Assembly: GCF_026151205.1 (NCBI RefSeq) | Contig: NC_087078.1 | Span: 15,269,118-15,333,117, forward strand | Length of the DNA stretch: 64,000 nt | DNA from: Bolinopsis microptera | Lineage: Eukaryota; Ctenophora; Tentaculata; Lobata; Bolinopsidae | Direction of reading: 5' to 3' | Part shown: positions 10,961-55,228 of the stretch, in pieces | How the letters are laid out: every line of letters begins with the position of its first letter | Numbering within the stretch: position 1 is the stretch's first letter | Translations under genes and position numbers: made by a program | Notes under the pieces: model-generated | Databases searched by the model: none | Seen by the model: only the letters and a program-made list of their open reading frames with translations | Told to the model about the DNA's origin: nothing

Positions 10961-11086
10961 TTGTAGCGTGATGCACTACTGGGTCGCGCCGCGCATCAAA
11001 TAATTCTTCTCGCAACCACTTCGGTAGATCAGCGAAATGCACCACTGTGCCTCACCGAGCTGCAAAGGATTGACATCGTGAATCAA
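10961..11086 (-). mobile_element. Small hairpin-ended mobile element (126 bp), TSD GGATTCAAG
   Basis: Starts TTGTAGCGTGATGCACTACT, ends GGATTGACATCGTGAATCAA, and is flanked by GGATTCAAG at 10952-10960 and 11087-11095. In repeat copy 54545-55425 the same site reads straight through without the insertion, which proves mobility. Written so that the TTGATT end comes first, it runs on the minus strand. Confidence 0.85.
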
Positions 11087-11161
11087 GGATTCAAGTTAGT
11101 TTGGTTTTAATAAGTAATTGTGAAAATAATATAAAGATTTGAAGTACAAATTTGTGCACCT

Positions 11162-11221
11162 TTAATTGACGATGTCAATTCATCTCAGCTCGGCGCGGCA
11201 CAGTAACGCATTGTGCTACAA
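11162..11221 (+). mobile_element. Short (60-bp) deletion derivative of the hairpin-ended element, TSD GTGCACCT(T)
   Basis: TTAATTGACGATGTCAATTC ... GCTCGGCGCGGCACAGTAAC ... GTGCTACAA, flanked by GTGCACCT at 11154-11161 and 11222-11229. The homologous site at about 54905-54925 is empty. It has both ends of the 135-bp element but only one of its two internal GGCGCGGCACAGTARCGCAT motifs. Confidence 0.85.
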
Positions 11222-11368
11222 GTGCACCTTAACTGTTAATTTTGTAATTATATTTACCATTAAAATAAAAATCAGCATTGATAAATGTAGCATGTACATG
11301 ACATTTCTTTAGGACTTTTCTGTATTCTTTGTAGATAAGGTAGCGACTACGTTTTAGTAGTAGTCGTT

Positions 11369-12019
11369 TTAGTATAGTGAGCATTCAGGGCACTGGCAAA
11401 TCCCGCCCTTGTTATCAGTTTCCCCGAGTTTACATTTTCTATTTCTTATCTCAACCCAATTTTCGTAAAGTTTATGCTGATTATTAATTGAGCAAATGAG
11501 ACCGGGAGTTATCCAAGGGTTAACCTTAACAGTTCTCTTAGAGGTTTTCGGGGTTTCTAGTTTAAACGATTTTTCGATGCAGTTTTTGTAAGTGTCATGG
11601 AATTCAGTAAAGTTATCGATTATTTTAGTTTTAAGCTCATCTTCAAGATCCACTAGGAAGCCGTTAACATTTGATTGACAGAAATCGTAGTACTGTTTAA
11701 TAGAAGTTTTTCCAGAGTTGACTTCAACATTCCAGTTAAATATGTTAAAAATAGGCGAGTGGTGAGTTATTCGTTCTTTTAGGGTGCCTGAAGTAATAAC
11801 ATTCTCAATATCGTTGGTAATTATGTTGTCTATGCAAGATGCTTTACAGCCTGGTTTTTCGTGAGTAGCAATAGATATTAACGGACAAAATCCTTTACTG
11901 AACAATATTTCTTCATATTTTTGTACATTTTTGTTATCTTTATCATGAAGATCGATATTAAAGTCTCCAGCTAGATAACTAAACTTCGGCATGTGATCAA
12001 GAAGGTTATTACAATTCAA
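11369..12019 (-). pseudogene. LINE endonuclease-domain fragment (CR1/L2/Jockey-like)
   Basis: A 216-residue open frame. It begins in the C-terminal part of an APE-type endonuclease: GDFNIDL, then a Ser/Asp pair in SCIDNIITND, then a site near ITHHSPIF where the catalytic SDH motif is expected. It continues into the linker typical of these elements (NPWITPGLICSINNQHKLYE). The N-terminal catalytic half and the reverse transcriptase are absent. It interrupts repeat B and is absent from the other B copy. Family assignment is from motif memory only. Confidence 0.75.
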
Positions 12020-12084
12020 GGATTAAGCTTTTATATAAAATAAATAAAATAGCAGTTTAAAACTTTTTTGCAAATCCATTATTT

Positions 12085-13513
12085 TATTTAATACACGTTA
12101 CTTATATACCAAGGGACCTAACCAAGCTTTTTTGTTGGAACAATAATTTTTAAAGTTAATGAAATATTTTCTAACTGCTAGGCTATTATATTATTCAAAA
12201 TTTAGCTCTTAAGGTCGGTTTTTGCCATTTTTTTGGAGGATAAAGTCAAGTAAGATAAAATTTATGACATCACATCATCACACATGTCTACAAAATATCA
12301 TCGCACTATGTGCTAATTCTTTTAAGCTTTGAATCTTTCCCGGAAAGCAGGTTGGCCATGGTCAAGCTGGATTGCTTCTTGTTTTAAAAAGTTTTAACAA
12401 AATATAATGTGTGCTCATATAGAGAGAAGTGATAGACATTTCAGACTATTAATTTGTCAGTAAAATGTTTCACATACAAATAGTTGATGGCGAATGATGA
12501 TGCGGTCTATAATGCAGTTGAATAGTTTTATTATTTAATGCAAAATTATGTTATATGTACGTACGTTTTGGAGAGCAGGTGTGCTCAGGACAACTGCATC
12601 AAGTGCGTTCTCCTGCAGCTCACAGCTCAGCATTGAGTTATCGTTTGTCGAAATGTAGCCTGGAGCAGGTGGTGTGTCGGGGTACTGTTCTATAAATCTG
12701 CCTAGACCAACTTTGAAACCGTATAGCATTGTGATACCTCGGAGCTCCAATGGGAGCACGCTGAAAAGCTGAGCTGCTACATCCATGTTTGTCTATTATT
12801 TAGTTCATCACAGCTACATATTGATTATTTATATACTACAGCTCTTTGCTGCACCCTCAAATATTTTTTTGGAATAAGAAAAACAAAATGTTTATTTACC
12901 ACAAAACATTCAATACATATTATGTTATATTCATAAATAAATTCAAATAAAGCACCCCCTCAGCTCTGATGGCACCCCCTGCCTCCACCCCACCCCTGCA
13001 TGGTGTGGTTAGCGGGGCCCTTTATTACACCACTAACAGTGGTGTTTGACATCACGCCAAGGGTCGACTGAGAGATGTAATATGCCTGGCATTTTGGCTA
13101 GAATCAAAAGGGGTTCAAAGTAACTGAGTAACCCTCTCTTATAGATGTTGATCAGTTAAGGAAACAGTCTCTATTACCATTTTTTCCTGTTACAGCATAG
13201 TGGGATAGACCCAAAACTACAGGAGGCCACTCAAGCTTAACCATGAACATTAATTAAACAAAACACAACTGGAACTCCATGTTCTTGAGTTTTTTGGGAG
13301 CATCGTTGCTCTAAAAACTGTATTTTGAAAGTGTCAATAAAACAAGGCATAGACTCCTATCAGAAACATTAACTACAAAATCAGGCTGAGTTTGAATTGA
13401 AAGAAAATAGTATTGTGGTTACAGATGCATGATTTGATCGCTTCAGCACTCTACTGTGTACTGCCTCTTTATTTTGTCATTTGATTTTTTAGATCTAACT
13501 AGTTGAACAAGTT
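12085..13513 (-). repeat. Dispersed repeat A, copy 1 (inverted copy at 40415-41848)
   Basis: The whole block is closely matched by the reverse complement of 40415-41848, including a short open frame (12535-12786) and the hairpin CACCACTAACAGTGGTG near 13030. A short third piece lies at about 55705-55775. It is probably the 3' end of a retroelement. Confidence 0.85.
12535..12786 (-). pseudogene. C-terminal tail of a LINE reverse transcriptase, short open frame with ATG
   Basis: An 83-residue frame starting MDVAAQLFSVLPLELRGI. The pattern LFxxLPLELR, then FKxxLxxFI, then PDTPPAPGY fits the extreme C-terminus of jockey/CR1-like reverse transcriptases, which is where such elements are usually truncated. 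There is no upstream frame to connect to. The repeat copy at 41161-41400 keeps the same ATG and nearly the same protein, with a frame change only near the end. Translation is doubtful. Confidence 0.5.
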
Positions 13514-15060
13514 GAAGACATATCAAAGCTGGGTGTCAGTGTGCTGTGAAAGCTGCTCTGGAGTGGTGTCGATAACGGGTGACTTGCTATACGATGGTGC
13601 GACCGTTGAACTACAGGTGGAAATGTGATAAACACTGTACTCGGGTGATCAATGTCGTAGTATCGCACTCAGTTTAAAACAGAGCGAGGTGTTTTTAACG
13701 GGTTTTAGGACTTGTTAAGGGTGTAACAGGCAAGTTTGGACCATGAAGGAAAAAAATCAACTCCAAACACTAGTATGATGAATGAAAGCCTTTTAGTCTA
13801 CCCTATTGCCTTGAGAAAACAAGGTGATTTGTGAGTTAAATGATCATGGTGAAGCGGAAGATTCTAACAAGTCGAAACGTCCATGGGGGACACCGCATAG
13901 TTGCTCATGTGAGAAGGTTGGAGGGCAGTCAGTGGCATATGTGGGGATTATAAAGCGACCTGTACTAATGTATCAGCAAAACGGACAATACCTCTACACT
14001 ACCGTGCGAGGTATGTCTGAATGCTGTGCAGGGGACATACGTTCTCTAAGATTGGACTTCAAAAATGGCTTATTTAATAATAACCGGTTGATTTCGATAT
14101 GAGGACGTGTCTTGACCACATGATACGCCACAAAGGGTTGTTATCTAATGGAATCGCTTGCCGGATGGCATCAACAGTGCATCGGCTATATTCCAAGTCA
14201 TGTATTTGGATGGACACTCTGTGGGGTGTGCCTATGACGTTGCTGCAGAATGACGATATATTTGTTTCTGGTCGACGAAATGAGTGTGACCATATGATCA
14301 AACGCTCAATAATGTCAGATGTAGGTTGGAGCAGCGAGGTTTTAAAATGTAATAAAAATCCGGAAAAAAAATAAACTTTCTTTCATGCTAAAAAGAAGTT
14401 GTCTTTCTGGGGTTCTTGTGGTGTTGCTGAAGGGATCAAACCAGTGAAAAAAGCAAGGGTCGTGAGTATTGCTGATGGCTCCGAACTAGGATTGTGGACG
14501 AAAATGATTAGTTTTTTTGGGGGCTGTGAATTATTACATGCGATATTTGCCCAACTTGTCGTCTGTATTGCTCCAATTGAAAGGTCTGTGAAGCTCAAGT
14601 AGTAAAGTGGGTGTGGACAAAATACCGAAAGAAAGCTTTAAAATATTGTATAATTCTGCTGGATTCTAACGTGTATTGACCTTTTAAATACCAAGCTTAT
14701 CTTTAACATGGACACTGACTGCTTCAATCGGTGGCATTGGCGCTGTGTTGTCTTCAAATTATGCTGAATGGGGGATGAGCGCCCCATTGAGTTCATCTCC
14801 GGACCTGTCACCGGCCGTGAGGAATTACGCTCAAGTGACAAAGAGGCAATGGCCATAGTGTGGGCCACTAAAGCGCTACATATTTACTTGTATATGAGAC
14901 GCTGTTTACTTGGTGGACAGATCATCGTGCGCTGGGTCGTATATTTGGCGATAAGCCAATTCAGAGTTGACTGCCGGTAGGTTAACTAGGGGGCTTTATT
15001 TCCTTATGAATTACAGTTTGACTTTCATCCCCCGTATCATACCCCTTTTCTTTGATCGTA
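13514..15060 (+). pseudogene. Fossil Ty3/gypsy pol (reverse transcriptase to RNase H)
   Basis: Read in shifting + frames, the order of a gypsy pol is recognisable. The RT start is WGTP with a KVGGQS segment (about 13885-13925). The YLYTTV and RLDFKN blocks follow (13990-14065), then the remains of the YVDD region as NDDIFVSGR (14250-14280), the thumb SFFGGCELLHAIF (14510-14560), a connecting WVWTKYRKKALK (14610-14640), and RNase H with ASIGGIGAVLSSNYAEWG, ERPIEFIS and SDKEAMAIVWATKALHIYLY (14720-14890), then DHRALGRIF. Many frameshifts and stops show that it is long dead. No LTRs were found. Confidence 0.8.
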
Positions 15061-15861
15061 ATTCCAAGTTATGCTAGCGCTGATTTGTTTTACACAGGCT
15101 GACTTAATCAGGTTAACAAACCCTGTGAGGGGAGAGACGAGTTTGTTGATATGTTCGACTGGACTTTGAGCGAGACTTTTCTCAATCCGTGGGTTAGGGT
15201 GACGCCTCAAAGCATCCCCAAACCTGAGCTGTAGATTAACTTCTTCTTGAAAACTAACCCAAAATAGTTTGAAAATTAAAGAAGCAATAATGATCGTATT
15301 TTTGAATGGCTTCATGATATTCAATCTTGCAGAAGTTATGGTCTAAAAGAATTGCTCACTTGTATGGATCATAGAGCCTTACTACAACAATTTTGAAAAC
15401 TTCCTTTTCCCCTACATTCAGTTTTTTCCTATGTGAAATATCGGAATTTGGATTTTATGTGAACTTTATTGATTTAAAGTCAACATTCGTAGACTCATAC
15501 ACCAAATACTGATAACAGAAAAATTTTAAATGTAATATCTCTTTTATTTATTAAATGTTGTGTAATCTGTACAAACCATTATATATAATAGACATTTTAT
15601 TACACTATTAAAAACCGTCTTATTATTTATGCAATGAAGCTATGCATATATATGATTGAGGATCTGGAATTATTGCCATTTGCATTTGTGATTCCTCCTG
15701 AATATGAATGACAGGAATGGCAAAAAACATCGTGTCACGATGTGTACTTCATTGTCATTTCTGCTAAAGCAGGAACCCTAAAATTCTGAAGATCTCCTCG
15801 CATTTATTTCATGAAAACTTCCAAATCTTACTGACTCCCTCAAATATTTTAGCAGACAGTT
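15061..15861. other. Spacer between gypsy fossil and AIG1 gene
   Basis: The first 300 bases may still be decayed pol. The rest is AT-rich and should hold the AIG1 promoter and 5' UTR. No clear core promoter motif was identified. Confidence 0.4.
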
Positions 15862-17776
15862 ATGGATCGCTCGTCTGTGTTTCACGTAATAGCAGCAGTT
15901 TATCATTTCTATGCCCTTATATACCCCTACTACCACGGACTCAACATGAACCACGCTAAGGGATTCGGAGGCAGACTAAAGTTTCTTACTATATGGGGCC
16001 ACCTTCTGCAGGTGTGTGTTTTTTATCTTTGGTTAACTCGATTAAAAAAAAGATAAAATTGCAGAATGCAGCTCAAAGAGCACCCTACAATTTACGGAAT
16101 CGATTACAATTTCTGTTGACGTCACAGGAGGTGACCGGGACATGATTTCAGGCCTGACCGGGACCGGGACCGGGATACAAAATGTGACTTGACCGGGACC
16201 GGGACCGGGATAGCTCAAAATTGAGATTATCAATTTACCGGGACCGGGATGAAAAATGTGACTTGACCGGGACCTGGACCGGGATAGCTCAAAATTGCCA
16301 ATCCCGGTACCGGGATTCCCGGTACACAATTTGTATCTTACACAATACAGAACATACTTGAATTTTTGAGTCTCGTTACCTAAATCATTCATTTCGTCCT
16401 TTATTTATTATTATCAACAGTCAACACTATAATTTCAGGTTGGGTACTACATATTTGCTGCTCTGGTTGACGTATATAATCAGTGCCGTGGTTCTCCTTG
16501 TTCTAAACTGAAACAGTGAGTCTTAAATTTCACTCTAATTAAATATTGTATCACGTATCGATTACATTGTTAAGAAGGGCTTGGTTATTGTCGGTTTACA
16601 ATACCTTTGACATCTATAACGTTACTTACTTTAGGTTACTTTCGTTTCTTATTTATTCGAAATACACATGCAAGTATTTTTTGTATATATTTTTGAAAGG
16701 AATGCTTAAATCAACCCCCTTAAGCAGTAGTACATACATATTACATTACACTGGATCGAGCTTACACAGTGTAATTTCTTCCAGTCTGCGCCGCGCGCCT
16801 ATATAAACGTATGCGGCGCAGGAGGAAATTACACTGTGTAAGCTCCAGTGTAATTAATATGTATGTACTACGGCTTTAGGCCTTAGTATAATATGTAATT
16901 ATCGTTTCAGGGCCAGAGATTGGTGGTTTTCAACTCTCGTGTTCCCGATAACATTCCTTGTATTCATACTTTTCTGGGGATTGTTTGCTTATGACAGAGA
17001 ACTAGTAATGCCTAAAAGACTGGACGCTGAGATAGATCCACTATTCAACCACATGGTAAGAAATTGTAACGGTCTTTTACCTAAGGGTCTACTTCTTTAG
17101 GGTAATGGAACACGCGAAAAAATATTCGTATTAATAAGCGCGCATCGCCCTCGTTACGGTCGCGCGCGGGCGCGGGGCGGGGCGATCGATCATATCGATC
17201 GATTGACGGACGGACGGACGGACTCGACTGACCGGATCAATCGACTGCAGACTTGCCCCTCCTGGAGTGTTATAAATAACCGGCGATTCCTCATTCCTGT
17301 TCTGTTACTCCAATAGGTTCAGACTTCTTGCCATACACATCTCATTCTTTATGAAGCAATTACCAGCTTTTATAGAATTTAGAACCATTTTCAACTTTGG
17401 CCTGTTAACACTATGAATTATTAGTTATTTATAACTGCTGCCTAGTCGCTGACTTCCAATATCCGTTCAGGTACACACCTTCATTATTTTCTGGGCACTA
17501 ACGGAACCTCTGGTAACCGAAATCACCATCCCCAAGAAACGCCAAGGACTTCTCGCCATAGCCTTCTTCGGAGTTTCCTATACAGTCTGGTCTTACATAA
17601 TTTTCCTGAACATAGGAAAATGGGTCTATCCTATACTCAATATACTGTCTGATGTACAGCGGGTCTTGTTTATTCTTGTCGCTTATGTCCTGATAGTCTG
17701 TTTGTTCTTTTCTACAAGGGCATATCAGAAAAAATTTGGAAGAGCTCATGTGGTCGCGGCTAAGAAAACTCATTAA
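15862..17776 (+). CDS. AIG1: AIG1/ADTRP-family membrane hydrolase
   Basis: Four coding exons, 15862-16011, 16439-16515, 16911-17055 and 17471-17776, all with GT-AG borders and matching phase, give a complete protein of 225 residues (vertebrate members are about 230-240). Vertebrate AIG1 and ADTRP are multi-pass membrane threonine hydrolases that cleave FAHFA lipids; their catalytic pair is a Thr and a His. Here the Thr is T43 in GGRLKFLTIW and the His is H126 in FNHMVHTF, at the family positions. Other family blocks are ARDWWF, FWGLFAYDRELVMPK and GKWVYPIL. The start is the first ATG in frame and gives the usual N-terminal hydrophobic segment. Introns hold a CCGGG repeat, a palindromic MITE and a GACG microsatellite (near 17205). 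Whether it is closer to AIG1 or ADTRP cannot be settled by eye. Confidence 0.93.
16130..16325. repeat. CCGGGA array in AIG1 intron 1
   Basis: Repeated GACCGGGACCGGGAC blocks alternate with TGAAAAATGTGACTT and AGCTCAAAATTG spacers, two tandem units of about 85 bp. Related to 6693-6775 and 48270-48465. Confidence 0.75.
16719..16882. mobile_element. Palindromic MITE in AIG1 intron 2
   Basis: Inverted repeat of about 165 bp with arms of about 70 bp. GTAGTACATACATATTA on the left matches TAATATGTATGTACTAC on the right, and both arms contain TTACACTG and GAGCTTACACAGTGTAATTT. The loop is GC-rich (CGCCGCGCGCC). Arms are nearly perfect, suggesting a fairly young insertion. The target duplication is unclear. 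Confidence 0.8.
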
Positions 17777-18480
17777 ATTTGCATTTGTTTAGTGGGGGAG
17801 GATCGTCGTTGTAATTTTTATTAGGTCTAATATTCACCAATGAAATTTAATGAAGGGGACCTTAAATTGTTAGCTATTAATTAGACAAATTAAGTTTCTA
17901 AAATCATTTTGTTGTATTGAATTCTTTTCAGCTTTCCGTCAGACATTATTTTTCGAACTAAAGTTATTGACAACTTCTGAAGTTTTTGTTTAGATTGTGA
18001 TTTTTGTCTTATTTTTATTGTTTTTGGTTTCCTATTAAATCTATTTCTTGTTTTGTCGGTATGCGTTACATTTTGACTTAGTTACATCTAGATTTAATAA
18101 CATCTGTATTCTGTATTGTTTTTTATCATTGACACTGAATATTAGTCTTTAATGAAAATTCATAAAAAAAGTGTTTTCTGGGCGTATGAAAGGTAAAACT
18201 TGATTCAGTCACCAGGCGTTTTATTTTGGTCGTTAAAATGATCATATTATTAAATTGATTTAGCCTGATAAAACACTGTTTAATGGGTATCCAAGTACAG
18301 GAGTACCACAGGCAAATATTTGTTTGTGAAACTGGCGCATTTTAAAAGTTTTAAAGAAAACAATCTTGAATACCAAGTGAAAAGCTGTTATTTATGATTG
18401 AAAACTTGCTAATGTACAAACTCCAATATATCGATACCATTAAAAGTAAATTAGGAAACAAATCTATGAAGTGTTTAAGT
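17777..18480. other. AIG1 3' flank, AT-rich
   Basis: Should contain the 3' UTR. AT-rich with no second gene seen. Confidence 0.5.
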
Positions 18481-18610
18481 TAAACTTAAAGGTCTTCGTG
18501 TCAGTACTCATGTTCTAGATTAAAATAGATTTAATTAAACCTGCAGAATAGAAATTGATCTGAGAATCTGCGGAGTGTTGAGCGATATCTGTCAAAATGT
18601 TTCTTTTCTT

Positions 18611-18725
18611 CTAAAACTGAAAATGGGGCAAAAAGATTGTTCAATTGCAAATTGGCGCAGGTTATATCTAAAACTGAAAATGGGGCAAAAAGATTGTTCA
18701 ATTGAAAATTGGCGCAGGTTATATC
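18611..18725. repeat. 57-bp tandem duplication
   Basis: AAAACTGAAAATGGGGCAAA through GGCGCAGGTTATATCT occurs twice in a row with one mismatch. Parts of the unit recur at 19090-19120, 19255-19290 and 19630-19680. Confidence 0.85.
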
Positions 18726-19350
18726 TCCACCGGAAGCATATTCCTTCGAAAAGTGGCATGCAGCGTATGTCAACACATTCCCAAATTGACGCATTAATTT
18801 AACTTCACGAATCGAGATAAAATCTATTGCAATGTATTCAGAATTAATATAAACAGGATTAAATACTTTTAAAGAGATAAAAACAGGCTCAAAGCGCTAC
18901 TGACGTATTTCTCCGTGAAAAGCACAATAACGTGAATAGCTTTTGTCGAGGTGCCTCGAAAGTGATCTTAAACGATACCCGTAGCCCGTTCAATTTTGGT
19001 CGTAAAACGCCAACTTAGTGCAGAATCAAGCAATTGTTAATGTTATAGATATATTTCATACGTATCAAATTAGATGTGCTTTCGGTGGAGATATCTGATA
19101 TAACCTGCGCCGCCTTTTCAATTTTCTTCAGGATTTTGACTTCAAGTACCTCAATTTGGTTTCATACCAATGACCATCATCAATTAACTGACTAATTGGC
19201 TTTTGGGCAAAGAATTCATCCAATCAGTTAAATTTGTGTTCAGAAATATTCATATTTGAAAATGGGGCAGGATTTGGAAAATACAAATTTTCGTTTTCAG
19301 TTTTATACTTTCTGCGGTGAGCTTCCTCTTGCTACACGTTGTATACCTCT

Positions 19351-19544
19351 CGTGCACGCGAAGCGTGCACGCCGGCCGGACTGCGATCAAAAGGGGTTGC
19401 AGCGTGTGTCAAGCTTCCTCCGACCGAAATCAAACTTTCAGCACCTCAATCGCGTGTCATATGCCATCTATTATAATCCTGGAAATTTCTTGACATACGT
19501 TGCATGCCACTTTTCGCGCGCGAAGCGCGCGCCGCCGAAGGCGG
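19351..19544. other. Three perfect GC hairpins with GAA triloops
   Basis: CGTGCACGC-GAA-GCGTGCACG (19351-19371), CGCGCGC-GAA-GCGCGCG (19515-19531) and CCGCC-GAA-GGCGG (19532-19544). The core GCGAAGC is a known, unusually stable DNA mini-hairpin. A fourth of the same design is at 20302-20322. Confidence 0.85.
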
Positions 19545-19858
19545 AAAATATATATCTCTGATATATATCTCATATATATCTCTGATATTTGCGATACGTA
19601 ACATGTATCAAGAAATTTCATCTTCAAAAACTGAAAATGGGACAGAATTTGGGACAATATGATTTTGCAATTTTCTTCGAGATTTTGACTTCCGGACCGG
19701 AAGTTCCGGTACCTCAATTTGGTTTGATCATACCATCGCATCATCAATTAACTGACTAATTGGTTTTTGGGCAAAAAATTCATCCAATCTGTCAAATTTG
19801 TGTTCAGACATTTTCATATTTGAAAATGGGACAGGATTTGGAAAGCACAAATTTTTTT

Positions 19859-19938
19859 ACCTGAGGACCCCAGGCTATTATATTATGTTCATTAACATAT
19901 AGAATTTGGCGGAATGACAGGCTGAGCGCGGCCCAGTA
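19859..19938 (+). mobile_element. SINE-like short element, copy 2
   Basis: ACCTGAGGACCCCAGGCTAT to AATGACAGGCTGAGCGCGGC and CCCAGTA. Flanked by AAATTTTT on both sides. Nearly identical to 55494-55570 apart from a short insertion in the TATTATG region. Confidence 0.65.
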
Positions 19939-20189
19939 AAAATTTTTGTTTTGTTAAACGTTCTGCTGTGAGCTTCCTCCGATCGAAATCAAACTTCCAG
20001 CACCTCAATCGTGAATCGTGTCATATGCCATCTATTATAGTTGACTGACTAATTGGTTACAAGTGAGAAATTAAGTCAAAACTTTAATTTATTTTGATTG
20101 TGATGTTACTCATCAACTCACCTTTCTAGATCCCGTCCTTCTGTCAGATCCAACGACGACGCTACAGATCCAACACGTGTAAACTGTAA

Positions 20190-20322
20190 ACTGTTGTATC
20201 ACGTTGCGACCCCCACGGTCGTTTCACTATGTGACGACGCTACAGTGACGCTATGTGACGACGCTACAGTGACGACGCTATGTGACGACGCTACAGGGGG
20301 AGCCGCGCACTTCGTGCGCGGC
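20190..20322. repeat. Short tandem repeat GTGACGACGCTACA and GAA/TTC hairpin
   Basis: CTATGTGACGACGCTACAGT repeats about four times (20227-20296). It is followed by the perfect hairpin GCCGCGCAC-TTC-GTGCGCGGC at 20302-20322. AACTGTAAACTGT stands on both sides (near 20185 and 20345). Confidence 0.8.
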
Positions 20323-20479
20323 GGGTCATACAACGTATGACAAGTAAACTGTAAACTGTAGTGACTGGAGTGTTACTAACACTGTTACACTTTTAGCTAA
20401 GATATGTTACCACCCTCGAACTGCGACAGACTAATATTAAGTATATACTTGATTTTTATCAGTTTATTTAGTGTACCTG

Positions 20480-20836: not shown

Positions 20837-21145
20837 CCGTAACTGTTTGGATTTAAATAAGTATTTTTAGACTTCAGAGTTCAGTGTCAGCTTGCATAGC
20901 CCAGGTTGTCAAATAAAATTAATATCTGTTAACATGAGGGTGGGTTACTAATCCCACAGTGCAAGATCTATTGGCGAAAAGTCATGAAATGATGAATCGT
21001 TTCAATTAAATCGGCCCGTTGCTACCTCTTTCTTAAACTTATCGATTCTAGAGCAGATGTCTTCTAGCTTTTGGGAAGTTGATTGTTTATCAAAGCTTCG
21101 TCCAATCAACATCTTCATAGGTGTGCAATGTTGGTTCAATCTATA

Positions 21146-37944: not shown

Positions 37945-38375
37945 CCAGTACTGCTACTACTAATACCAGTATAAGTACTACAGTGAGTGTACAGGAGTAA
38001 TACCAACTCTGTACTACAGTGAGTGTACAAGAGTAATACCAGTACCAGTACAACAGTGAGTGTACAAGAGTAATACCAGTACCAGTACAACAGTGAGTGT
38101 ACAAGAGTAATACCAGTACCAGTACTACAGTGAGTGTACAAGAGTAATACCAGTACCAGTACAACAGTGAGTGTACAAGAGTAATACCAGTACCAGTACA
38201 ACAGTGAGTGTACAAGAGTAATACCAGTACCAGTACAACAGTGAGTGTACAAGAGTAATACCAGTACCAGTACTACAGTGAGTGTACAAGAGTAATACCA
38301 ACTCTGTACTACAGTGAGTGTACAGGAGTAATATCAGTAGTCAGTACCAGTACTACATTAAGTGTACAGGAGTAA
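37945..38375. repeat. 37-bp minisatellite, about 11 copies
   Basis: Unit AGTGAGTGTACAAGAGTAAT plus ACCAGTACCAGTACAAC. Central copies are almost identical and the edge copies are degenerate. Its long open frames on the minus strand are a property of the 37-bp unit, not a gene. Confidence 0.95.
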
Positions 38376-43577: not shown

Positions 43578-43612
43578 CTGAAAGAAATTGATATATTTAA
43601 ATTTATTCAATA

Positions 43613-46135: not shown

Positions 46136-46417
46136 CAGTTCCTCTTTTGAGTTTGTCCCAATTTCCTTCAGTAACATAGACAAGTAGCTTTGTCTTGGTC
46201 GGCCTTGCTGTGCTCTACCATGCATAGGTTTCCATAAGACTAAATCACTGGCAAGTAGCTCAGGATGTCTGATGCAGTGTCCCGCCATTTTTAGTCTCCT
46301 GCTTCGTAACTTGTTTGACAGCCTTGGTAGACTACCATACAAAGTTATATTGCTGACCTTGTCCTTCCATGAGGTACCCAGCACCATACGTAGCATCTTT
46401 GTGTATGTCCCGTCCAA
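46136..46417 (-). pseudogene. C-terminal fragment of a LINE ORF2
   Basis: 94 residues (DGTYTKMLRMVLGTSWKDKV, then KLRSRRLKMAGHCIRHPELL and GRAQQGRPRQSY). This is the conserved tail found after the reverse transcriptase in RTE-like and related invertebrate LINEs. 5' truncated, with a stop where the family usually runs on. Confidence 0.8.
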
Positions 46418-46499
46418 TACAAATGAAATAAATTATTTTTATCCCGCTTATATCAACAATCAAAATTAAAAACTTATGGATGTATATCACTCATTATTA

Positions 46500-47495: not shown

Positions 47496-47839
47496 ATTAC
47501 AAATTTTTTACTGAAACTGACTTCACTGGCTTTTTGAACGTTTCAACTGAAAGCTCAGATTTATTGTCACGGTTCGTAGCTTCCGCGAGTTCAGTGATCC
47601 AACCGGCAGTTGTAATGTAGCGATAAAATAGAGATAAGAGCTAGATTATCAACACGTAACAAAAACTGTAAAACTGTATCATAATATTATTATGCTTTTA
47701 ACATCATCTGTTGTGATATACATGACAAAGGGTTGGAAATGTACAGTAACCTTACTATATTGCAATTACACAATATTATGTGAACGACCCCTAACCCCTT
47801 ATCTAAGGCTCTATAAGTATTGAATAATGATAACTGCAG

Positions 47840-49241
47840 GGTTTCAAAATGTACAAGGCATCATATCAAAGACTGCATATAATGCCCGAAAGAAGGACGA
47901 ATCCAATTTGGCTCTCTGGATGTATTGAAAGCTCTCAACCTTCCAGAAAAGGACTGTTCAAAGGAACACTTAAATCCCTCCGACAGGTAATTATTATAAA
48001 TAATAATTTAGTTTACACTTCACTATGTCAAATCACCTACTATAATGAAGAAAATTGTTGTGTTAACCAAGTTTAATGTGACTCAATTTTGGTGGAACTT
48101 TAGAATTTGGACATTATATCTATCATGTTCATCTTAAATCTCATATTATATACTCAATATTCAATTAAACAGACAAAGATAACCTCTCTAGGCCCTCTGG
48201 TGGTGACGTATAAGTGCTTTCTCAGTACTTTCTCTCGCTTTTGGACAAATCCAGTGAGTTAACTTTTTATCAGTGGTCGACCGGGGGCAGGATTCTGACC
48301 GGGGCCGGGGAGCCCCAATATAGCCGGGGCTGGGGCTGACCACTGAGAATTGGCCGGGGTTAAATTTATTGGCCGGGGCTGGTGTTTACCCCCGGCGAAT
48401 TGCCAATTTTTGGCCGGGGCCGGGAAGGGCTGGGGGTTGTGATTTTGGCCGGGGCACCGGTCACGATTTTTAAAACTTTATTCATAAGTTTATGAAACAT
48501 CAAAACTTTGCATGCTCTGCATTATGTAAAGTCAGTCATGCACTAGAGCACAGTTCACATATAACCTAATCCAGCCTAGGGGAGGGGGTTTGAAGTCGCT
48601 TGTGCTAGAGTGATTTATACTCAGCTCAATAGCTATGTGAAAAGTGGCCCAAGGAGGGGAGACCGACGTAAACAATTTTGAATTGGTAGAAGTTAAGTTT
48701 AGGCTTTAATAAAATACTATTGAAAGAATATCATTCTTTTACCACAGACATAAGACTTTGCCGTAAGGTATACAAAAATGTGATCATTCATCAATTTTCA
48801 GAGTGCTGTATCTGTACCCGAAATAAAGGATTTTAATGAAACAGTTTTCTTCCGCTCTGAAAGTGAACGAATGACAAAACAGTCTAGAGAATTCCTCGCC
48901 CTGCTGCAGAAGATCAATCCTGGGTTGTGCTCACCAAAGCAAACCTCTTTTTTGTGTATTCAGTGTCTTAACTATGTAAAAGACAACTATAACAGGGTGA
49001 GTGGTTTCCTCCTGTTTTACTAACATTTAAAAACATTATTATTCAAAGTTAAATAGACAGCGAGTAGTAATTTTTAATCCATTTCTATCGGATTTGCAAA
49101 CTTTTAAAATGATATAACACTTGTACGATCTCAAACTTATGTGATATGATACTGTTGATATAAATGTGGGAAGTAATAAAGTATTTGCAGGTGTACAGTG
49201 CTGTTTCTGAAATTGACGAATCTTCTTGTGATGAAGATTGA
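47840..49241 (+). CDS. Small unknown protein, three exons
   Basis: Coding exons 47849-47986, 48802-48996 and 49191-49241, all phase 0, with clean borders (CTGCAG/GG, CAG/gtaatt, TTTTCAG/AGT, AGG/gtgagt, TTTGCAG/GTG), give 127 residues. The first exon starts at 47840, nine bases before the ATG, so a 5' UTR intron is likely. The protein is basic at first (MPERRTNPIW), with a middle CSPKQTSFLCIQC that could bind a metal, and an acidic end (SEIDESSCDED). No family recognised. The 3' half of exon 2, the last intron, exon 3 and the 3' flank are duplicated at 52161-52764 around a LINE; the left copy described here remains intact. Confidence 0.55.
48270..48465. repeat. CCGGGG-rich repeat in intron 1
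   Basis: Many GGCCGGGG blocks between CAGTGGTCGACCGGGGGC and GGGGCACCGGTCACG. Relative of 6693-6775 and 16130-16325. The CAGTGG-like ends hint at a hAT-type non-autonomous element, not proven. Confidence 0.6.
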
Positions 49242-49471
49242 AGAAGCTATTGCCATCCAAGTGGAAAAAGTCCCGCCTTTGTCACCCTCGGCCTCCTCGA
49301 ATAGAACTAAGAAAATGTGGAGACTTTCTTCATTTAGTTCCCAATCAAGTAGACCAGATGTTGATTTGTTTGAAATGGACTGAGACTTGTGTTTCATATG
49401 CCAGGTTGAACAGGTTTGTGTGAAACTTTTGCTCGCAAATATAATTATTATACATATATTATCTCGATTTA
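48866..49471. repeat. Left 606-bp direct repeat flanking the LINE
   Basis: From AACGAATGACAAAACAG to CTCGATTTA. Matches 52161-52764 with only two substitutions noticed and one 2-bp indel. Confidence 0.95.
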
Positions 49472-49571
49472 CGAATCTTCTTGTGATGAAGATTGAAGAA
49501 GCTATTGCCATCCAAGTGGAAAAAGTCCCGCCTTTGTCACCCTCGGCCTCCTCGAATAGAACTAAGAAAAT
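49472..49571. repeat. Third, 100-bp partial copy of the host gene at the LINE 5' junction
   Basis: CGAATCTTCTTGTGATGAAG to ACTAAGAAAATG repeats 49217-49315 exactly and abuts the 5' end of the LINE. The bases CGAA are shared at the joint. Confidence 0.9.
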
Positions 49572-52160
49572 GGTATCTTCATGGGGTGTGTGATATCAGT
49601 CATCTTGTTTGTCTTGTGCATGAACCTTGGGCATGAACACCTAAAGTCTAAGGTTCCGAGAAGCATTGAGTACATCAAGGATGACACACCGATACCAACT
49701 CTGAAGCTGTTTATGGACGATAGCTGTCTGACGACCGCACGTGCAGAGGATATGCAAACGTTACTCAATGTGTTTCAGAAGTACGTGGACTGGTCCAGAT
49801 TTAAGTTAAAGTCCTCCAAGTCCAGAGCACTGGTGTTGAAGAAGGGAGTGGCTGTGAGGTGGGTTGAGGAGGTAGTGGTAGGAGAGGAGGAGGTGGAGAG
49901 AGAAGAGGTGTGTTTGCAGTTGGGTGGTGAGGTGATTCCGAATGTGTCAGAGAAGCCGATAAAATTCCTTGGGAGATGGATAAGAGTGGAAGGAAATGAC
50001 AAATCAGTCATCGACTCAACCAAGGTCGACCTTAACACTTTTCTTCGGAGACTCGATGAAAGTTCCCTTACTGGACTCCAGAAGTGCTGGGGATATCAGT
50101 ACATGGTCCTTCCAAAACTGAAGTGGCCTCTTGCCATCTATGATATTCCGATCACAACAGTTACCAGATGGGAACAGAATACCAATAGTTTCCTCAGGAA
50201 GTGGTTAGGGGTGGGGCACACTCTGAGTGGTCTTTGTCTGTTCAGTCAATCATCCAGTGTGGCCTTACCGGTGAGCAGTTTGACAGATACATGGAAGATA
50301 GAGAAGTGTCGACTGTTGCAATCCTATCAGACATCTAAGGATGACCTGATTAAAGCAGTCCAGCCCCAAGTTCGTTCTGGTAGAGTTTGGAGGCCTGAGA
50401 CAGAACTGGAAGAGGCCAGAAGAGATTTGGTCTGTGAATCGGTGCGAGGGATGGTGCAACCTCAAAAAAGAGTTGGCATCGGTTTTGGTGACTGGAAAAA
50501 ACCTTGGGAGAGGATGGATGAACGGGAAAGAGAGAGGGAGGTTATGCTGAGAGTGAAGGAGAACATTGAAAGAGAGAGGGAGGTGCAAGTAGGTTCTCTG
50601 GAGATGCAGAGCAGGTGGGGTGAGTGGAGAGAGCTCGTAATGAAGACGGATTTGAGCTGGCATACACTTTTTAAGTATGGTGACTCACTTATTGGGTTCA
50701 TGCTAAGTGCTGTGTACGGCACCCTCTTAACCCCCTCTATGGTTTCCAAGTGGAGTGAAGATGAGGATGGGAAGTGCAAGTTATGTGAGGAAAGGATGGG
50801 CACCATTCAGCACATTTTGGCTGGGTGTAAGGTGGCCCTTAGTCAAGGAAGGTATAGATGGCGGCACGACAAGGTTCTGAAGCAGATCTCTGAACAGGTT
50901 GTCTTCCATTGTGATCGCCGAGTGAACACTTATAAGAACAAGGCCGGCGATGGAAGGCAGTTCATTGATTTTGTTCCTGCTGGGAAAAGAAAAGCAGGTA
51001 CAGACGACCGGAAGGAGAGTCGTGGTTTTGGAATCCTGAGTGGGTATCGGGATTGGATAGTGCTGTCAGACCTTGAGGGGCAGCTTAAGTTTCCCAGTGA
51101 GATTGTGGAAACACGGCTGAGGCCGGACCTTGTAATATTCTTAAGGTCGGCAAAGACAGTTATTTGGTGGGAGCTAACAGTACCATCTGAAGAGCGGATC
51201 GCTGAATCGCACGAGTACAAGCTCGACCGATACAGCGGTCTGCAGGCTGAGATTCAGGCGAAAGGTTGGTGCTGTTATAATGCCGCGGTCGAAGTTGGAG
51301 CTAGGGGAGTGGTTGCGCAGAGTTTGGAGAGAGCTGCGAGGAGGATTGGTTTTAGGGGAAGAGAGCTGAAGAAGCTGGTATGGGACAGTGGGAAAGAGGC
51401 AGCCCACTGTTCCAGATGGATCTACTTGTTATCGAGAAAGAGGGAGTGGGAGTTCAGGAAGGTTGGAGCTTGAGAGTTCACTATAACATCTAGAGGTACC
51501 ATAAACGTTATCTCGTCGCCAATTGCGAGCTCTAACGGGTCTCCTCAAGTGACTCTCGGATCAGATGGTGGTTCAAGGGTGGACTGCGGGGGCGCCTGAC
51601 AGGAAACCGTATTGCGATTAAAGCTCCGAAACGGTGTCAGGTTGGTAACTGATGATTCTGATCCATGCTCCTGTGAGTTTGCTGTTGTATCTCAACTCGC
51701 TAAACTGAGGCATCTCCGCATCTTGGGTGAATATGCGTACATCTTCATACTAAACCCAGGTGTGGCATGTGTCAGTGAATACGGGCGAGCGGATGCAATA
51801 GCAAAGGTGGTGTGGCAAGGCCTAAAAGACACAGTCAGATAGTTGTCAGCTCGCTGACTGTAAGGGAGAAGGTATATCCGTATTTCGCTGCTACTGATGC
51901 AGTCCTTGATCTGGCAATCAAGGCTTCTCTGTTTTTCGTCTAACTATGTACCGTTGGGCTTGTGGAACCCGTCAGGGGGACATACATAGGTTAGAATGGT
52001 TTTGTGCACCAAGAGGAGTGAGGGAATGAGGGTTGAAGAGATAGAGCTAGAGAGTTGTTAGGGTGGTTAGGATCAGTAGGTGGAGTGTTTGGTTGGAGCG
52101 TTCTGTTTTTGCTGTATAGCATTTTAGTCACTTCGCAGTTTATTAACTGTGTCTCAACTC
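49572..52160 (+). mobile_element. 5'-truncated non-LTR retrotransposon with restriction-like endonuclease
   Basis: About 2.6 kb holding the 630-residue frame and a 3' region of about 690 bp without a poly(A) tail. It is inserted between nearly identical 606/604-bp direct repeats. A decayed relative is at 7986-8436. Confidence 0.85.
49581..51473 (+). CDS. LINE reverse transcriptase (C-terminal part) plus zinc knuckle and PD-(D/E)xK endonuclease
   Basis: A 630-residue uninterrupted frame. It begins inside the reverse transcriptase (GCVISVILF, motif B-like), reaches the catalytic box as FMDD (44-47, where Y/FxDD is usual), then has thumb sequence. At about 399-417 is a CCHC knuckle (CKLCEERMGTIQHILAGC). 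A basic WRHDKVL helix follows and then a restriction-like endonuclease with RPDLVIF and WWELTVPSEERIAESHEY at about 513-545, in which RPD, E and K positions fit PD-(D/E)xK. This domain order (RT, CCHC, RLE) is that of R2/NeSL/Utopia-type LINEs. The N-terminal zinc fingers and the first RT motifs are missing, so it cannot be a full-length active copy, but the lack of stops shows youth. Confidence 0.85.
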   Translation: MGCVISVILFVLCMNLGHEHLKSKVPRSIEYIKDDTPIPTLKLFMDDSCLTTARAEDMQTLLNVFQKYVDWSRFKLKSSKSRALVLKKGVAVRWVEEVVVGEEEVEREEVCLQLGGEVIPNVSEKPIKFLGRWIRVEGNDKSVIDSTKVDLNTFLRRLDESSLTGLQKCWGYQYMVLPKLKWPLAIYDIPITTVTRWEQNTNSFLRKWLGVGHTLSGLCLFSQSSSVALPVSSLTDTWKIEKCRLLQSYQTSKDDLIKAVQPQVRSGRVWRPETELEEARRDLVCESVRGMVQPQKRVGIGFGDWKKPWERMDEREREREVMLRVKENIEREREVQVGSLEMQSRWGEWRELVMKTDLSWHTLFKYGDSLIGFMLSAVYGTLLTPSMVSKWSEDEDGKCKLCEERMGTIQHILAGCKVALSQGRYRWRHDKVLKQISEQVVFHCDRRVNTYKNKAGDGRQFIDFVPAGKRKAGTDDRKESRGFGILSGYRDWIVLSDLEGQLKFPSEIVETRLRPDLVIFLRSAKTVIWWELTVPSEERIAESHEYKLDRYSGLQAEIQAKGWCCYNAAVEVGARGVVAQSLERAARRIGFRGRELKKLVWDSGKEAAHCSRWIYLLSRKREWEFRKVGA

Positions 52161-52764
52161 AACGAATGACAAAACAGTCTAGAGAATTCCTCGCCCTGCT
52201 GCAGAAGATCAATCCTGGGTTGTGCTCACCAAAGCAAACCTCTTTTTTGTGTATTCAGTGTCTTAACTATGTAAAAGACAACTATAACAGGGTGAGTGGT
52301 TTCCTCCTGTTTTACTAACATTTAAAAACATTATTATTCAAAGTTAAATAGACAGCGAGTAGTAATTTTTAATCCATTTCTATCGGATTTGCAAACTTTT
52401 AAAATGATATAACACTTGTACGATCTCAAACTTATGTGATATGATACTGTTGATATAAATGTGGGAAGTAATAAAGTATTTGCAGGTGTACAGTGCTGTT
52501 TCTGAAATTGACGAATCTTCTTGTGATGAAGATTGAAGAAGCTATTGCCATCCAAGTGGAAAAAGTCCCGCCTTTGTCACCCTCGGCCTCCTCGAATAGA
52601 ACTAAGAAAATGTGGAGACTTTCTTCATTTAGTTCCCAATCAAGTGGACCAGATGTTGATTTGTTTGAAATGGACTGAGACTTGTGTTTCATATGCCAGG
52701 TTGAACAGGTTTGTGTGAAACTTTTGCTCGCATATATAATTATTATACATATTATCTCGATTTA
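52161..52764. repeat. Right 604-bp direct repeat (3' half-copy of the 127-residue gene)
   Basis: Carries the last 131 bp of exon 2, the intron, exon 3 and 3' flank of the gene at 47840-49241. It has no exon 1 and only part of exon 2, so it is a pseudo-copy. Confidence 0.9.
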
Positions 52765-52769
52765 ATTTT

Positions 52770-53340
52770 AAGAGTATGAGAGGATATTCTTCTTTAACAA
52801 TACGAATTTCCCTAGACGTTAGAAACGAAAAAGGATAGTCTGATTCAAGGAAAAGATAAAAGTTTCTTCGTCGATTTCGCAACATACTATCTGTGGACAT
52901 CTACAGAAATCGTCAGGATCTGTGCAACATCGATGTTAATCCTGATTCGCACATGAACAAGTGCCCTGTTCTTAACCCTGAGAGTCTCGGAAAATATCTC
53001 TATAGCAAGCTAGGTAGATATCACAAAACGTGTCGTTTGAGGTACAGCAACTCGAGGGTGAAACAATTGAAGGGTAAATTATCTGAAGCTGTAAGTTTAA
53101 AACCTGTCTCTAAAAACCTGTTTTAAAATGGAAAGACACGTGTCCACGCACGACAACACCAATGCTGCATTAATGAGTGCAGGTATTGACGCTGTACGGA
53201 CCTTTTAACTGGAGCAGGAGAATGTTTTACCAGAACTGTACCTCGTGTCTGACCTGAAGCTTAAGTACAATGACTATGTGACGTCTAATTTATCTGAGAA
53301 CGCTACAAACTCCAGCTATGTTTAATCTGATCACATCAGT
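52770..53340 (+). pseudogene. Decayed member of a Cys/His-rich multicopy protein family
   Basis: From 52893 a frame reads KCPVLNPESLGKYLYSKLGR, then YHKTCRLRYSNSRVKQLKGK, and later pieces (SDLKLKYNDYVTSNLSEN) are broken by stops. A DLCFICQV phrase occurs just upstream at about 52680. The layout CxxCQ..., CP..., YHxxCRxxY resembles uncharacterised repeated cnidarian proteins. Function unknown. Confidence 0.4.
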
Positions 53341-54409
53341 TTTCAGAAAGACAATGTCGGTAAGACGAGTTTGTATCTAATCTTGCCGCAACAATAGATT
53401 CGGATAGAGATGATAACACTTTAACAAAGACAGCACTCATAACGGAGATTAGAAAAGAAATCTTTCAATGTAGAAACGAATTCTATCAGCTATCGTTCCG
53501 TAAGACGATTTATCTTCAAAAACATGTTCGATTTACCGATCGGTGGCATCTGTAGAAATATAGTGTTTATGTGGATTAATCTGTTAAAGCAGGGCTATTG
53601 TATCATTTTAACATTAACTTTGCATAGTGATGATACGTTTATTGTGTCTCTTGTGATTATCTATTTTCTACAGTGTTACGGTACCACGAGGTTTCTGGCG
53701 CAGTGACGCGCTTTTGAGCAAATATCGTGCTAGATACGTCACGCGCCGCAACCGAATCAGATTTAAGTGCACTTTTTTCATTGTAAACACTACAAACGAC
53801 GCGCAACACGTTCTACGTGGTCGAAATTTTTGAGGTCTCTAACACCGGAATGGAGCAATATTTAGACGATCTGACACTTTCTGGGGCTTAAGCAACCTAA
53901 GAGAAATTAGGGGAACAACTCAGAAAAAATTTTAGTCGATATTCCGGTGTCTGTAGATGTCCGAAGTTTTGGCAGTAAAGTGCTCACAACACAGCTTCTG
54001 AAGGCTCTAGAAGGTTCCCGATACCGTCAGAGTGTTCAGTACACTCCATTCTATCATATAAGAACCCTAAAAGAAGTCCCAGGGCTCGAGCAAAAAAGCG
54101 TGATATTTGCCCGTAACAGCCTCTACTACAATAGATTGATTTAAAATCTTTGGATATGCCGGTTTCGTTTATACCAGTTTATTAGTATAATTGTGTGATG
54201 TGACTAGTGAGTGACTACATGCGTTGGTAATATTGTGACTATTTGTTACTATATTCTCACTCATTCGCTTGCCTTAACATTATCACGTGAATTTGGTTTT
54301 AATGGTTTTGCAATCGAACAAAACGGTTTCAAAATTCACATTAACCCTAATCCAAATCCTAACCACCTCGTCTGACGTCGAGGGTTTAATATATTTGGAA
54401 CAAATATTT
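53341..54409. other. Intergenic with one TIR end
   Basis: TGCCCGTAACAGCCTCTAC at 54108-54126 next to TA is a right end of the 21146-22002 type element; its left end was not found. TCACGTGA at 54285. No gene. Confidence 0.5.
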
Positions 54410-54418
54410 TACAAGTAC

Positions 54419-54531
54419 TTGTAGCGCGATGCACTACTGGGCCGCGCCGCGCATCTTCTCGCAACCACATAGATCGGCGTAATGCACCACTGGGCCTCGC
54501 CGAGCTGGGAAGGATTGACATCGTGATTCAA
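54419..54531 (-). mobile_element. Small hairpin-ended mobile element (113 bp), TSD TACAAGTAC
   Basis: TTGTAGCGCGATGCACTACT ... GGATTGACATCGTGATTCAA between exact TACAAGTAC copies at 54410-54418 and 54532-54540. Confidence 0.85.
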
Positions 54532-54675
54532 TACAAGTACTAACTTTTAAAAATGGATTTGCAAAAAAGTTTTAAACTGCTATTTTGTTTATTTTATATA
54601 AAAGCTTAGTCCTTGAATTGTAATATGTTTGGTGTTTATAATTTTGTAATTTATATTAAATAATAGGGCGCAATT

Positions 54676-54810
54676 TTAATTGACGATGTCAATTCATGGC
54701 AGCTCGGCGCGGCACAGTAGCGCATCTCGCCGATCTAGCTAGAGAAGCCATGTCGCTGTGAAAAGCCTTATTAAGTGCGCGGCGCGGCACAGTAACGCAT
54801 TGCGCTACAA
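54676..54810 (+). mobile_element. Full-length hairpin-ended mobile element (135 bp), TSD GGCGCAATT
   Basis: TTAATTGACGATGTCAATTC ... GCGCTACAA between exact GGCGCAATT at 54667-54675 and 54811-54819. Holds two direct copies of GGCGCGGCACAGTARCGCAT (about 54706 and 54781). Confidence 0.9.
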
Positions 54811-54961
54811 GGCGCAATTATATTTTGACCGTTCTGTGCCATGTACATGCTACATTTATAAATGCTGATTTTGATTTTAATGGTAAATATAATTATAACG
54901 TTAATAGTTAAGGTGCACAAATTTGTATTTCAAATCTTTATCATTTATATTATTTTCACAA

Positions 54962-55088
54962 TTGTAGCGCGATGCGTTACTGTGCCGCGCCGCGCACTTA
55001 ATAAGGCTTCTCACAGCGACACTGGCTAGATCGGCGAGATGCGCTACTGTGCCGCGCCGAGCTGCCATGAATTGACATCGTCAATTAA
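54962..55088 (-). mobile_element. Hairpin-ended mobile element (127 bp), TSD TTTCACAA
   Basis: Nearly identical to 54676-54810 but in the other orientation. Flanked by TTTCACAA on both sides (8-10 bp, depending on where the ends are placed). The site is unoccupied in copy 1 of repeat B (about 11113-11130). Confidence 0.88.
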
Positions 55089-55114
55089 TTTCACAATTAC
55101 TTTAAAACCAAACT

Positions 55115-55228
55115 AGTTATGTAGCGCGATGCACTACTGGGTCGCGCGCGCATCAAATAATGCTTCTCGCAACCACATGCAACCGTATGCAGATCGGCGA
55201 GATGCGAAGGATTGACATCGTGAATCAA
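55115..55228 (-). mobile_element. Hairpin-ended mobile element (114 bp), TSD AACCAAACT
   Basis: AGTTATGTAGCGCGATGC ... GACATCGTGAATCAA with AACCAAACT at 55106-55114 and 55229-55237. The site is unoccupied in copy 1 of repeat B (about 11098-11110). Confidence 0.85.

Follow-up and report, generated by a model that had tools for sequence, protein, structure and literature searches.

The window analysed here is a 64,000-nucleotide stretch of the Bolinopsis microptera genome (contig C7, positions 15269118-15333117 of a 264.65 Mb eukaryotic assembly), and it carries several families of very small mobile elements, the first of which we call family E. These elements are non-autonomous DNA transposons that entered the target through cuts staggered by 8 or 9 bp; their ends are asymmetric, the tips in several families consist of TT followed by a palindrome, and internal deletion is tolerated. 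We lean towards the view that they are moved in trans by one or more DDE-like enzymes reading the TT-palindromic tips by shape as well as by sequence.

The eight E insertions that an earlier note had listed in the window, made from the sequence alone, were all confirmed by direct reading of the sequence and measurement of the flanks:

4473..4625, + strand: E element, C-like subfamily, 153 bp; E1 end at 4473; 9-bp duplication GTTTATGAG
10961..11086, - strand: E element, B subfamily, 126 bp; E2A end at 10961, E1b end at 11086; 9-bp duplication GGATTCAAG
11162..11221, + strand: E element, A subfamily, 60 bp, one of the shortest copies; 8-bp duplication GTGCACCT
54419..54531, - strand: E element, B-like, 113 bp; 9-bp duplication TACAAGTAC
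54676..54810, + strand: E element, A subfamily, 135 bp; 9-bp duplication GGCGCAATT
54678..54694, + strand: E1 tip palindrome, with 7-nt arms and centre GAT, occupying positions 3-19 counted from the end of the element and predicted to form a 7-bp stem
54962..55088, - strand: E element, A subfamily, 127 bp; 8-bp duplication TTTCACAA
55119..55228, - strand: E element, B subfamily, 110 bp; E2 tip mutated (ATGTAG); 9-mer duplication AACCAAACT on both sides
59159..59316, - strand: E element, C-like, 158 bp; 9-bp duplication CTCATAAAC

The direct repeats of 8-9 bp around the insertions were likewise confirmed, being exact at 9 bp in five of the eight and at 8 bp in two. An exact duplication at the ends was missing only from the insertion at 55115/55119-55228, where four stray bases (AGTT, 55115-55118) lie beside the element and, together with the mutated tip, explain why the exact flank match at the E2 tip fails. 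The insertions at 4473-4625 and 59159-59316 are inverted copies of a single insertion, located in the two arms of inverted repeat I9 (96%), and the window therefore records seven independent events rather than eight.

The existence of empty sites, also claimed in the earlier note, was borne out with flank-join probes crossing the junction elsewhere in the window. The junction was crossed for 10961-11086 (empty counterpart near 55224-55274), 11162-11221 (54871-54941) and 54962-55088 (11097-11150), with weaker matches for 55119-55228 (near 11086-11130) and 54676-54810 (near 4707-4745). Two elements of family I, introduced below, also have empty counterparts, 19857-19939 at 19253-19328 and 55492-55571 at 58872-58943. 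The same probes in the window yielded no empty site for 54419-54531, 4473-4625 or 59159-59316. A large inverted duplication spans 2162-13487 and 40433-62298, its longer pieces being mostly 95-100% complementary, and it dates the insertions that differ between its arms.

Beyond the window, duplication lengths were measured over 71 distinct E1-E2 pairs (79 before removal of duplicates). The duplication was exact at 9 bp in 26 pairs and at 8 bp in 16, with none exact or present in the remaining 29, and no pair had an exact duplication of 3-7 or 10-14 bp. Both lengths, 8 and 9 bp, are therefore real. The best register of the element boundary is TTR..CAA; copies with TTGATTCAC mostly have 9 bp (10 of the 12 exact ones, and 16 of 17 in a palindrome-selected set). 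An exact 9-mer duplication was found within 300 bp for 17 of 40 sampled copies versus 29 of 1200 random start points, and the E insertion duplications are thus beyond chance. At two loci (L057, 107-317; L058, 27-248), two E elements stand back to back with their E2 ends facing and a single 9-bp target copy between them.

Genome-wide, the E1 core TTGACGATGTCAA had 2407 matches versus 19 for a reversed-pattern control, a count that leaves out the subfamily with TTGATTCACGATGTCAA, and the two right-end types had 2711 (reversed control 1) and 750 (control 0). Subfamilies were defined from 40 loci of contig C1, taken in order from the first part of 100 listed E1 places. They share E1 and comprise A (TTAATTGACGATGTCAATTCATGGCAGC..), B (TTGATTSACGATGTCAATCCTTCGC..) and C (TTGATTGACGATGTCAATCCGTCGAGATCG.. 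and relatives), the right end being GCATCGCGCTACAA in A and B and CGGCGAAGTCCTCCAA in C. Over the 71 pairs, E elements were 54-242 bp long; the mobile elements are mostly 60-160 bp. Because copies of 60 bp (L028, AGTTTCAA; 11162-11221), 61 bp (L104) and 76 bp (L093) retain exact duplications, about 17-20 bp at one end and about 40 bp at the other seem to be enough for mobility. Thus, the elements share with miniature inverted-repeat transposable elements (MITEs) their short length, lack of coding capacity, high copy number (including 2076 matches for family I) and duplication of fixed length, 8 or 9 bp only and exact in 42 of 71 pairs, but they have no terminal inverted repeats. The earlier proposal is thus upheld in that the family is non-autonomous, its unusual ends are palindromic without being inverted copies, and its short duplications are of fixed length. 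The consensus ends of E and of families F, G, H and I share only TT(R) and, in some cases, a short core, and are not inverted copies of each other; the palindromes prove to be a rule common to several families with differing stems.

The rule is simple: TT is followed by a 17-nt palindrome in which positions 3-9 from the tip pair with positions 13-19 around a 3-nt centre at positions 10-12. Six or more families (E, F, G, H, I and K) follow it, usually at both ends. The ends are TTGTATCACGTYGTGACC / TTGTCATACGTTGTATGACC in F, TTAACGGGTGATACTCGT / TTGTAGGTTTACAACCTACC in G, TTGACGGATGTTACTCGTC / TTGACCATTGTTAATGATC in H and TTACTGGGCCGCGCTCAGCC / TTACCTGRGGACCCCAGGC in I, the first end of I having 2076 exact 22-mer matches genome-wide (control 0). 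Family J stands outside the 3-nt rule. Its copies, read by eye, carry TT, a 5-nt stem and a 4-nt loop ANCC, as in the tips TTCACAT-AGCC-ATGTG and TTGCTCT-AACC-AGAGC; the J2 end folds with this stem and loop, and the J1 form TTCACCTAACC, with one mismatch, barely folds.

The constancy of the geometry emerged from a scan in which the window and the collected loci were searched for stretches of 50-400 bp running from TT to AA and flanked by exact 8- or 9-bp duplications, which returned 366 pairs, overlapping loci and shifted registers included. At least 10 of 14 arm pairs were formed around centre 11 in 88 of these, compared with 0, 1, 1 and 0 around centres 9, 10, 12 and 13. Families were also clustered without use of the palindrome, and 9 of 129 clusters reached the threshold of 3 or more distinct duplications spread over 3 or more loci. 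One-base-shifted E accounted for two of the nine; the other seven corresponded to E-A/B, E-C, F, G, H, I and J, with median pairs (out of 7, at the two ends) of 6/6, 7/2, 7/5, 7/5, 5/6, 5/5 and 0/0, respectively. Both tips thus fit the rule in five of the seven clustered families, one tip does so in E-C and neither in J.

The pairing was further assessed by dealing the 3' arms anew among end types in 200,000 shuffles, with a set of ends that had partly been first picked by the palindrome. The 12 end types formed 67 of 84 arm pairs, whereas the shuffles had a mean of 31.3 and a maximum of 58, none reaching 67; a set of ten, to which E-A, F, G, H and I each contributed both ends, formed 59 of 70 pairs against a mean of 25.3 and a maximum of 56, again with 0 of 200,000 reaching the observed value. 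Held-out sequence of 20 kb, comprising twenty 1-kb loci chosen only for E2C, gave 31 pairs under an assumed TT tip, some of them one-base-shifted readings of the same element. Centre 11 was found in 14 of the 31, centre 12 in 1 and centres 8-10, 13 and 14 in none; 12 of the 31 formed 5 or more of the 7 pairs at both ends, and every one of these had TT tips and an 8- or 9-bp duplication. This sequence holds unselected copies of F, G, H, I, J, K and E-A/B. Among the 20 selected E2C ends themselves, 8 were matched by a TT tip at most 400 bp away with an exact duplication, which measured 9 bp in 5 and 8 bp in 3; the other 12 had none. In the window alone, two palindromic ends were found at 8 or 9 bp only with TT (3 and 3 pairs), alongside one TA pair at 6 bp; across all loci, TT gave 40 paired palindromes at 8 bp and 36 at 9 bp.

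Stems are kept across the copies of a family and differ between the two ends of an element. In E1 (n = 71), positions 3/19 are A-T in 32 copies, G-C in 36 and mismatched in 3, and positions 4/18 are A-T in 62 and A-C in 9, with a G-C form in L051, L136 and L139; since the subfamilies are related by descent, these variants may represent few events. The centre is often equal at both ends (GAT in E-A/B, GTT in F and H, the ANCC loop in J), and is not so in E-C, G or I. Predicted folding of single DNA strands returned most or all of the expected stem for 9 of 14 ends. Whole-element folding was unexceptional for E (z of -0.1 and -1.8) and moderate for the others (z of -1.9 to -3.3).

Target bases outside the duplication, averaged over both sides with shifted readings included, showed a preference common to three families. 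The third base outside was C or T in 85% for E (73 sites), 88% for G (13) and 90% for I (14), against a background of 50%, and the fourth was C in 5%, 0% and 4%, respectively, against 21%; at the second base, A or T was preferred in E and I. This common target preference is what would be expected if E, G and I used the same machinery or related machinery.

Members of the other families in the window, together with partial copies, are the following:

19490..19611, + strand: K element, 122 bp; tips TTGACATACGTTGCATG / TTGATACATGTTACGTATC; 8-bp duplication GAAATTTC
20194..20343, + strand: F element, 150 bp; tips TTGTATCACGTTGCGACC / TTGTCATACGTTGTATGACC; 8-bp duplication GTAAACTG
19857..19939, - strand: I element, 83 bp; 8-bp duplication AAATTTTT
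55492..55571, - strand: I element, 80 bp; exact duplication at the element ends not found
59326..59419, + strand: G element, 94 bp; adjoins the duplication of an E element; flanks CTCATAAAC / CTCATTAAC (1 mismatch)
9053..9090, - strand: partial I element
54376..54417, - strand: partial G element; adjoins the E element at 54419

A second K copy, with its own 8-bp duplication, was present in held-out locus L144. None of the 16 open frames of at least 130 aa in the window overlaps a listed element. The inverted duplication includes an intronless receptor-like gene in two copies, at 2473-3648, with a 7tm_1 match, and at 60808-61983, where no Pfam match was obtained although the translation is nearly identical to that of the first copy. 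The window also contains a reverse transcriptase open reading frame of 635 aa at 49566-51473 (RVT_1, with zf-RVT under its cut-off) and a tandem array of a 37-bp repeat at 37974-38337.

To find the mobilising enzyme, we searched the genome for transposases of the superfamilies with comparable duplications. Mutator-like elements (MULEs) make duplications of 8-11 bp, usually 9 bp, and the Merlin (IS1016-like) superfamily makes duplications of 8-9 bp; the genome has 88 MULE-type (PF10551) and 58 Merlin-type (PF12762) transposase matches. Fifteen distinct MULE-type matches, 12 with about 4 kb of flanks and 3 with about 1.5 kb, were probed for E1, E2A and E2C, and none of these 15 of 88 lay within an E-ended element; nor did E ends enclose the transposase at any of 11 of the 58 Merlin-type matches. 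The E copies near the MULE matches L077 and L078 are separate short insertions or are directed away from the transposase. An E1-like end with two mismatches in L078 lacked a matching duplication, and an apparent TTG-tipped MULE in L075 was dropped because it is a portion of a longer inverted repeat. An inverted-repeat scan with 8- or 9-bp duplications returned a clean MULE of 3264 bp (L072; ends GGCAGTATCGAG.., duplication taatattg) with true inverted repeats, both ends starting with GG, and the one Merlin end that could be read by copy comparison in eight loci also starts with GG. Thus, the link to Mutator suggested in the earlier note was not borne out: no such ends surround the transposase at the loci examined, and their own readable ends start with GG. 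The undescribed transposase that the earlier note considered may nevertheless exist, the search for a longer coding element having been partial. The tips of the MULE-type L072 (2629-5893) and of the Merlin-type L079-L082 are alike (GGCAGTATCGAGATAGCCCGAC and GGCAGTTTACAAGAAGCCCGAC), and both also carry subterminal repeats that are short.

Longer elements with E ends were sought as well. Over the first 6.4 Mb of contig C1, 14 end pairs lay more than 160 bp apart; the 11 that were read resolved into separate or nested short copies, except for an unpaired end in L050. Ends with a non-standard neighbour were collected with four patterns, three of which catch about 37% of random neighbours and the second only YYC starts, at 20, 16, 19 and 14 places (8, 0, 0 and 1 with reversed-pattern controls). 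In this partial search, 47 of the 69 were read (18 of 20, 12 of 16, 17 of 19, two of the last inside L096 and L116, and 0 of 14), and no coding element with these ends was found among them. A facing partner was present within 260 bp for 22 of the 45 ends analysed by script and farther away, often weak, for 7; none was found within 0.6-0.7 kb for the other 16, so that longer elements are possible at some of these places. Among the places with a readable partner, most proved to be nested or tiny copies. The longest open frame beside unusual ends without a near partner was 101 aa. Only one long copy, of 689 bp (L109, 64-752), had an exact duplication at the right end; it is an E element into which a CCCAG..CTGGG repeat is nested and which is further enlarged by a 212-bp repeat that recurs widely elsewhere. 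The E1 pattern had no match in viral contigs. Possibly the enzyme is rare, was overlooked or has been lost, or the ends of its own element have diverged.

Movement in trans by tip-reading DDE-like enzymes, the account that we favour, would proceed as follows. One enzyme, or a small set of related enzymes, would recognise TT and the palindromic tip through its centre and its symmetry or hairpin/cruciform shape rather than through a fixed stem sequence, and would then join the ends to the target across cuts staggered by 8-9 bp, preferring, in the case of E, G and I, sites where the third base beyond the duplication is a pyrimidine. The DDE-like chemistry is suggested by the duplication, and recognition of the tip shape and loop by stems that differ at the same geometry and by the centres that are equal at both ends in E-A/B, F, H and J. 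The bolder form of the proposal, eukaryotic transposition in which a TT-tailed hairpin or cruciform is recognised by its shape, the loop being read while the stem need only pair, with the 8-9 bp stagger, is one that we put forward tentatively and regard as doubtful; if it were true, several tiny families with different stems could ride the same enzyme.

A number of observations weigh against the favoured account. It was by eye or via the palindrome that families F, G, H, I and K first came to notice, and the clustering and the held-out test, although they made no use of the palindrome, assumed the TT tip. Across all loci, other tips also gave paired palindromes: CA 54 at 9 bp; GA 163 and CA 124 at 11 bp; TG 6 and TA 1 at 6 bp; AG 3 at 8 bp; and, at 7 bp, GA 29, CA 5, GT 2, TT 2, AT 1 and AG 1. 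The non-TT pairs probably come from tandem arrays in the transposase loci, where arrays of this kind are seen, and none occurred in the held-out 20 kb. Predicted folding reached a z of -2 or lower in only 7 of the 14 ends. The abundant ends E1b, with one central mismatch, and E2C, with 2 of 7 pairs, fold poorly or not at all, and in B neither end has a matched 7-15 pair (C-C, C-A); copies with E1b or E2C nevertheless carry exact duplications, E1b in 17 such pairs, and a stable hairpin is therefore not strictly required. Neither F (10 sites) nor J (8) showed the C/T target preference, the H sample (6 sites) is too small, and G differs from E and I at the second base. Finally, the partner enzyme was not found in the partial genome search, and everything said here about recognition is for that reason inferred.

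The closest alternative is that these are ordinary miniature elements of a known cut-and-paste superfamily, MULE, Merlin or similar, with decayed inverted repeats, in which the palindromes are duplex sites bound by a dimer and no hairpin is read. It is a possible account, though not the one that we expect to prevail. The duplication length fits both superfamilies, relatives of both exist in the genome, the E-A/B ends share TT and a CGATG core at equal distance from the tip, as a duplex site might, and the mobility of ends with broken palindromes favours a duplex site. However, the MULE in L072 has true inverted repeats starting with GG, the Merlin end read in eight loci also starts with GG, and E ends enclosed not one of the 15 MULE and 11 Merlin matches that were inspected. 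Moreover, a dimer half-site should be constant, whereas here the stems differ between ends and families while their complementarity is kept.

Single-strand transposition of the HUH type, as in IS200/IS605, Helitrons and Replitrons, with an enzyme reading the end hairpins, appears improbable. Hairpins beside the cut site are typical of HUH systems, and Helitrons and Replitrons have, like the elements described here, a hairpin at or near an end and no terminal inverted repeats. Helitrons, however, make no target duplication and have a 5' TC and a 3' CTRR with a 3' hairpin, whereas the elements here have duplications and TT..AA tips; constant 8-9 bp duplications are unlike IS200/IS605 as well. 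The Y1 HUH transposase of IS200/IS605 (PF01797) had no match in the genome, Replitron- and Helitron-type proteins not having been searched for. A review (PMC10741241) describes Replitrons as devoid of inverted repeats, with short direct repeats at their termini and duplications of 2-8 bp; 9 bp exceeds this range, and no short direct terminal repeats were seen in the consensus ends. The palindromes might instead be left behind when ends are processed, for example when hairpins are opened or excised ends undergo snap-back repair, and have no role in recognition. This would give symmetry without conserved stems, but it is very improbable given that the geometry is constant, two bases from the tip, in several families and that the stem is kept across the copies of a family.

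If the tips are indeed read as structures, one enzyme could mobilise seemingly unrelated elements, which would explain both the spread of 60-bp elements and the resistance of these families to classification. The rule also offers a route to the enzyme: in related genomes, one would look for a coding element that has TT-palindrome tips and is flanked by an 8-9 bp duplication.

DNA transposons that are tiny and non-autonomous are already known as a kind, and the elements described here can be set against several known systems. They resemble MULE MITEs in being tiny, non-coding and present in thousands of copies, with 9-bp duplications common and the 8-9 bp found here within the MULE range. They differ in that inverted repetition does not extend beyond TTR and in their TT-palindrome tips, and none of the 15 MULE-type matches examined out of 88 has these ends. 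The 8-9 bp duplications are equally those of Merlin, which has relatives in the genome, but Merlin elements have GG ends and an IS1595-type transposase; those of their ends that were read in this genome start with GGCAG, GGTAAC or GGCAAC, whereas the elements here start with TTR. Short interspersed elements have a 3' tail and duplications of variable length; here there is no tail, both ends are fixed and the duplications are 8-9 bp. Integron attC sites and IS200/IS605 ends, which are read as folded strands and keep structure over sequence, serve as a working analogy only, being bacterial, of different chemistry and without an 8-9 bp duplication. Within the KDZ group, Kyakuja is reported to lack terminal inverted repeats and to have CA..TG termini with 7-bp duplications, and Zisupton to have an 8-bp duplication (PMC12730594). 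The absence of terminal inverted repeats is shared with Kyakuja, whereas the termini here are TT..AA and the duplications 8-9 bp; this comparison is by termini and duplication, a KDZ transposase not having been searched for. Coral CMITEs are, like the elements here, small, non-autonomous and of unusual structure in a marine animal; the terminal inverted repeats and the link to piggyBac-like transposons described for them (PMC2872659) were not seen here.

In the open-access full texts searched, no description of the TT-palindrome rule was found, and the four end sequences looked for were likewise absent from the open-access literature; Repbase itself was not searched, and some of the families may therefore stand unclassified there. 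Repbase classes non-autonomous families largely by terminal sequences, duplication features and other structure, and places two families together by alignment of the first 11 positions (PMC4455052), a rule that would not join the families described here. Families are usually recognised by sequence, through inverted repeats matched to one transposase; here, by comparison, different ends are united by a single geometric rule.

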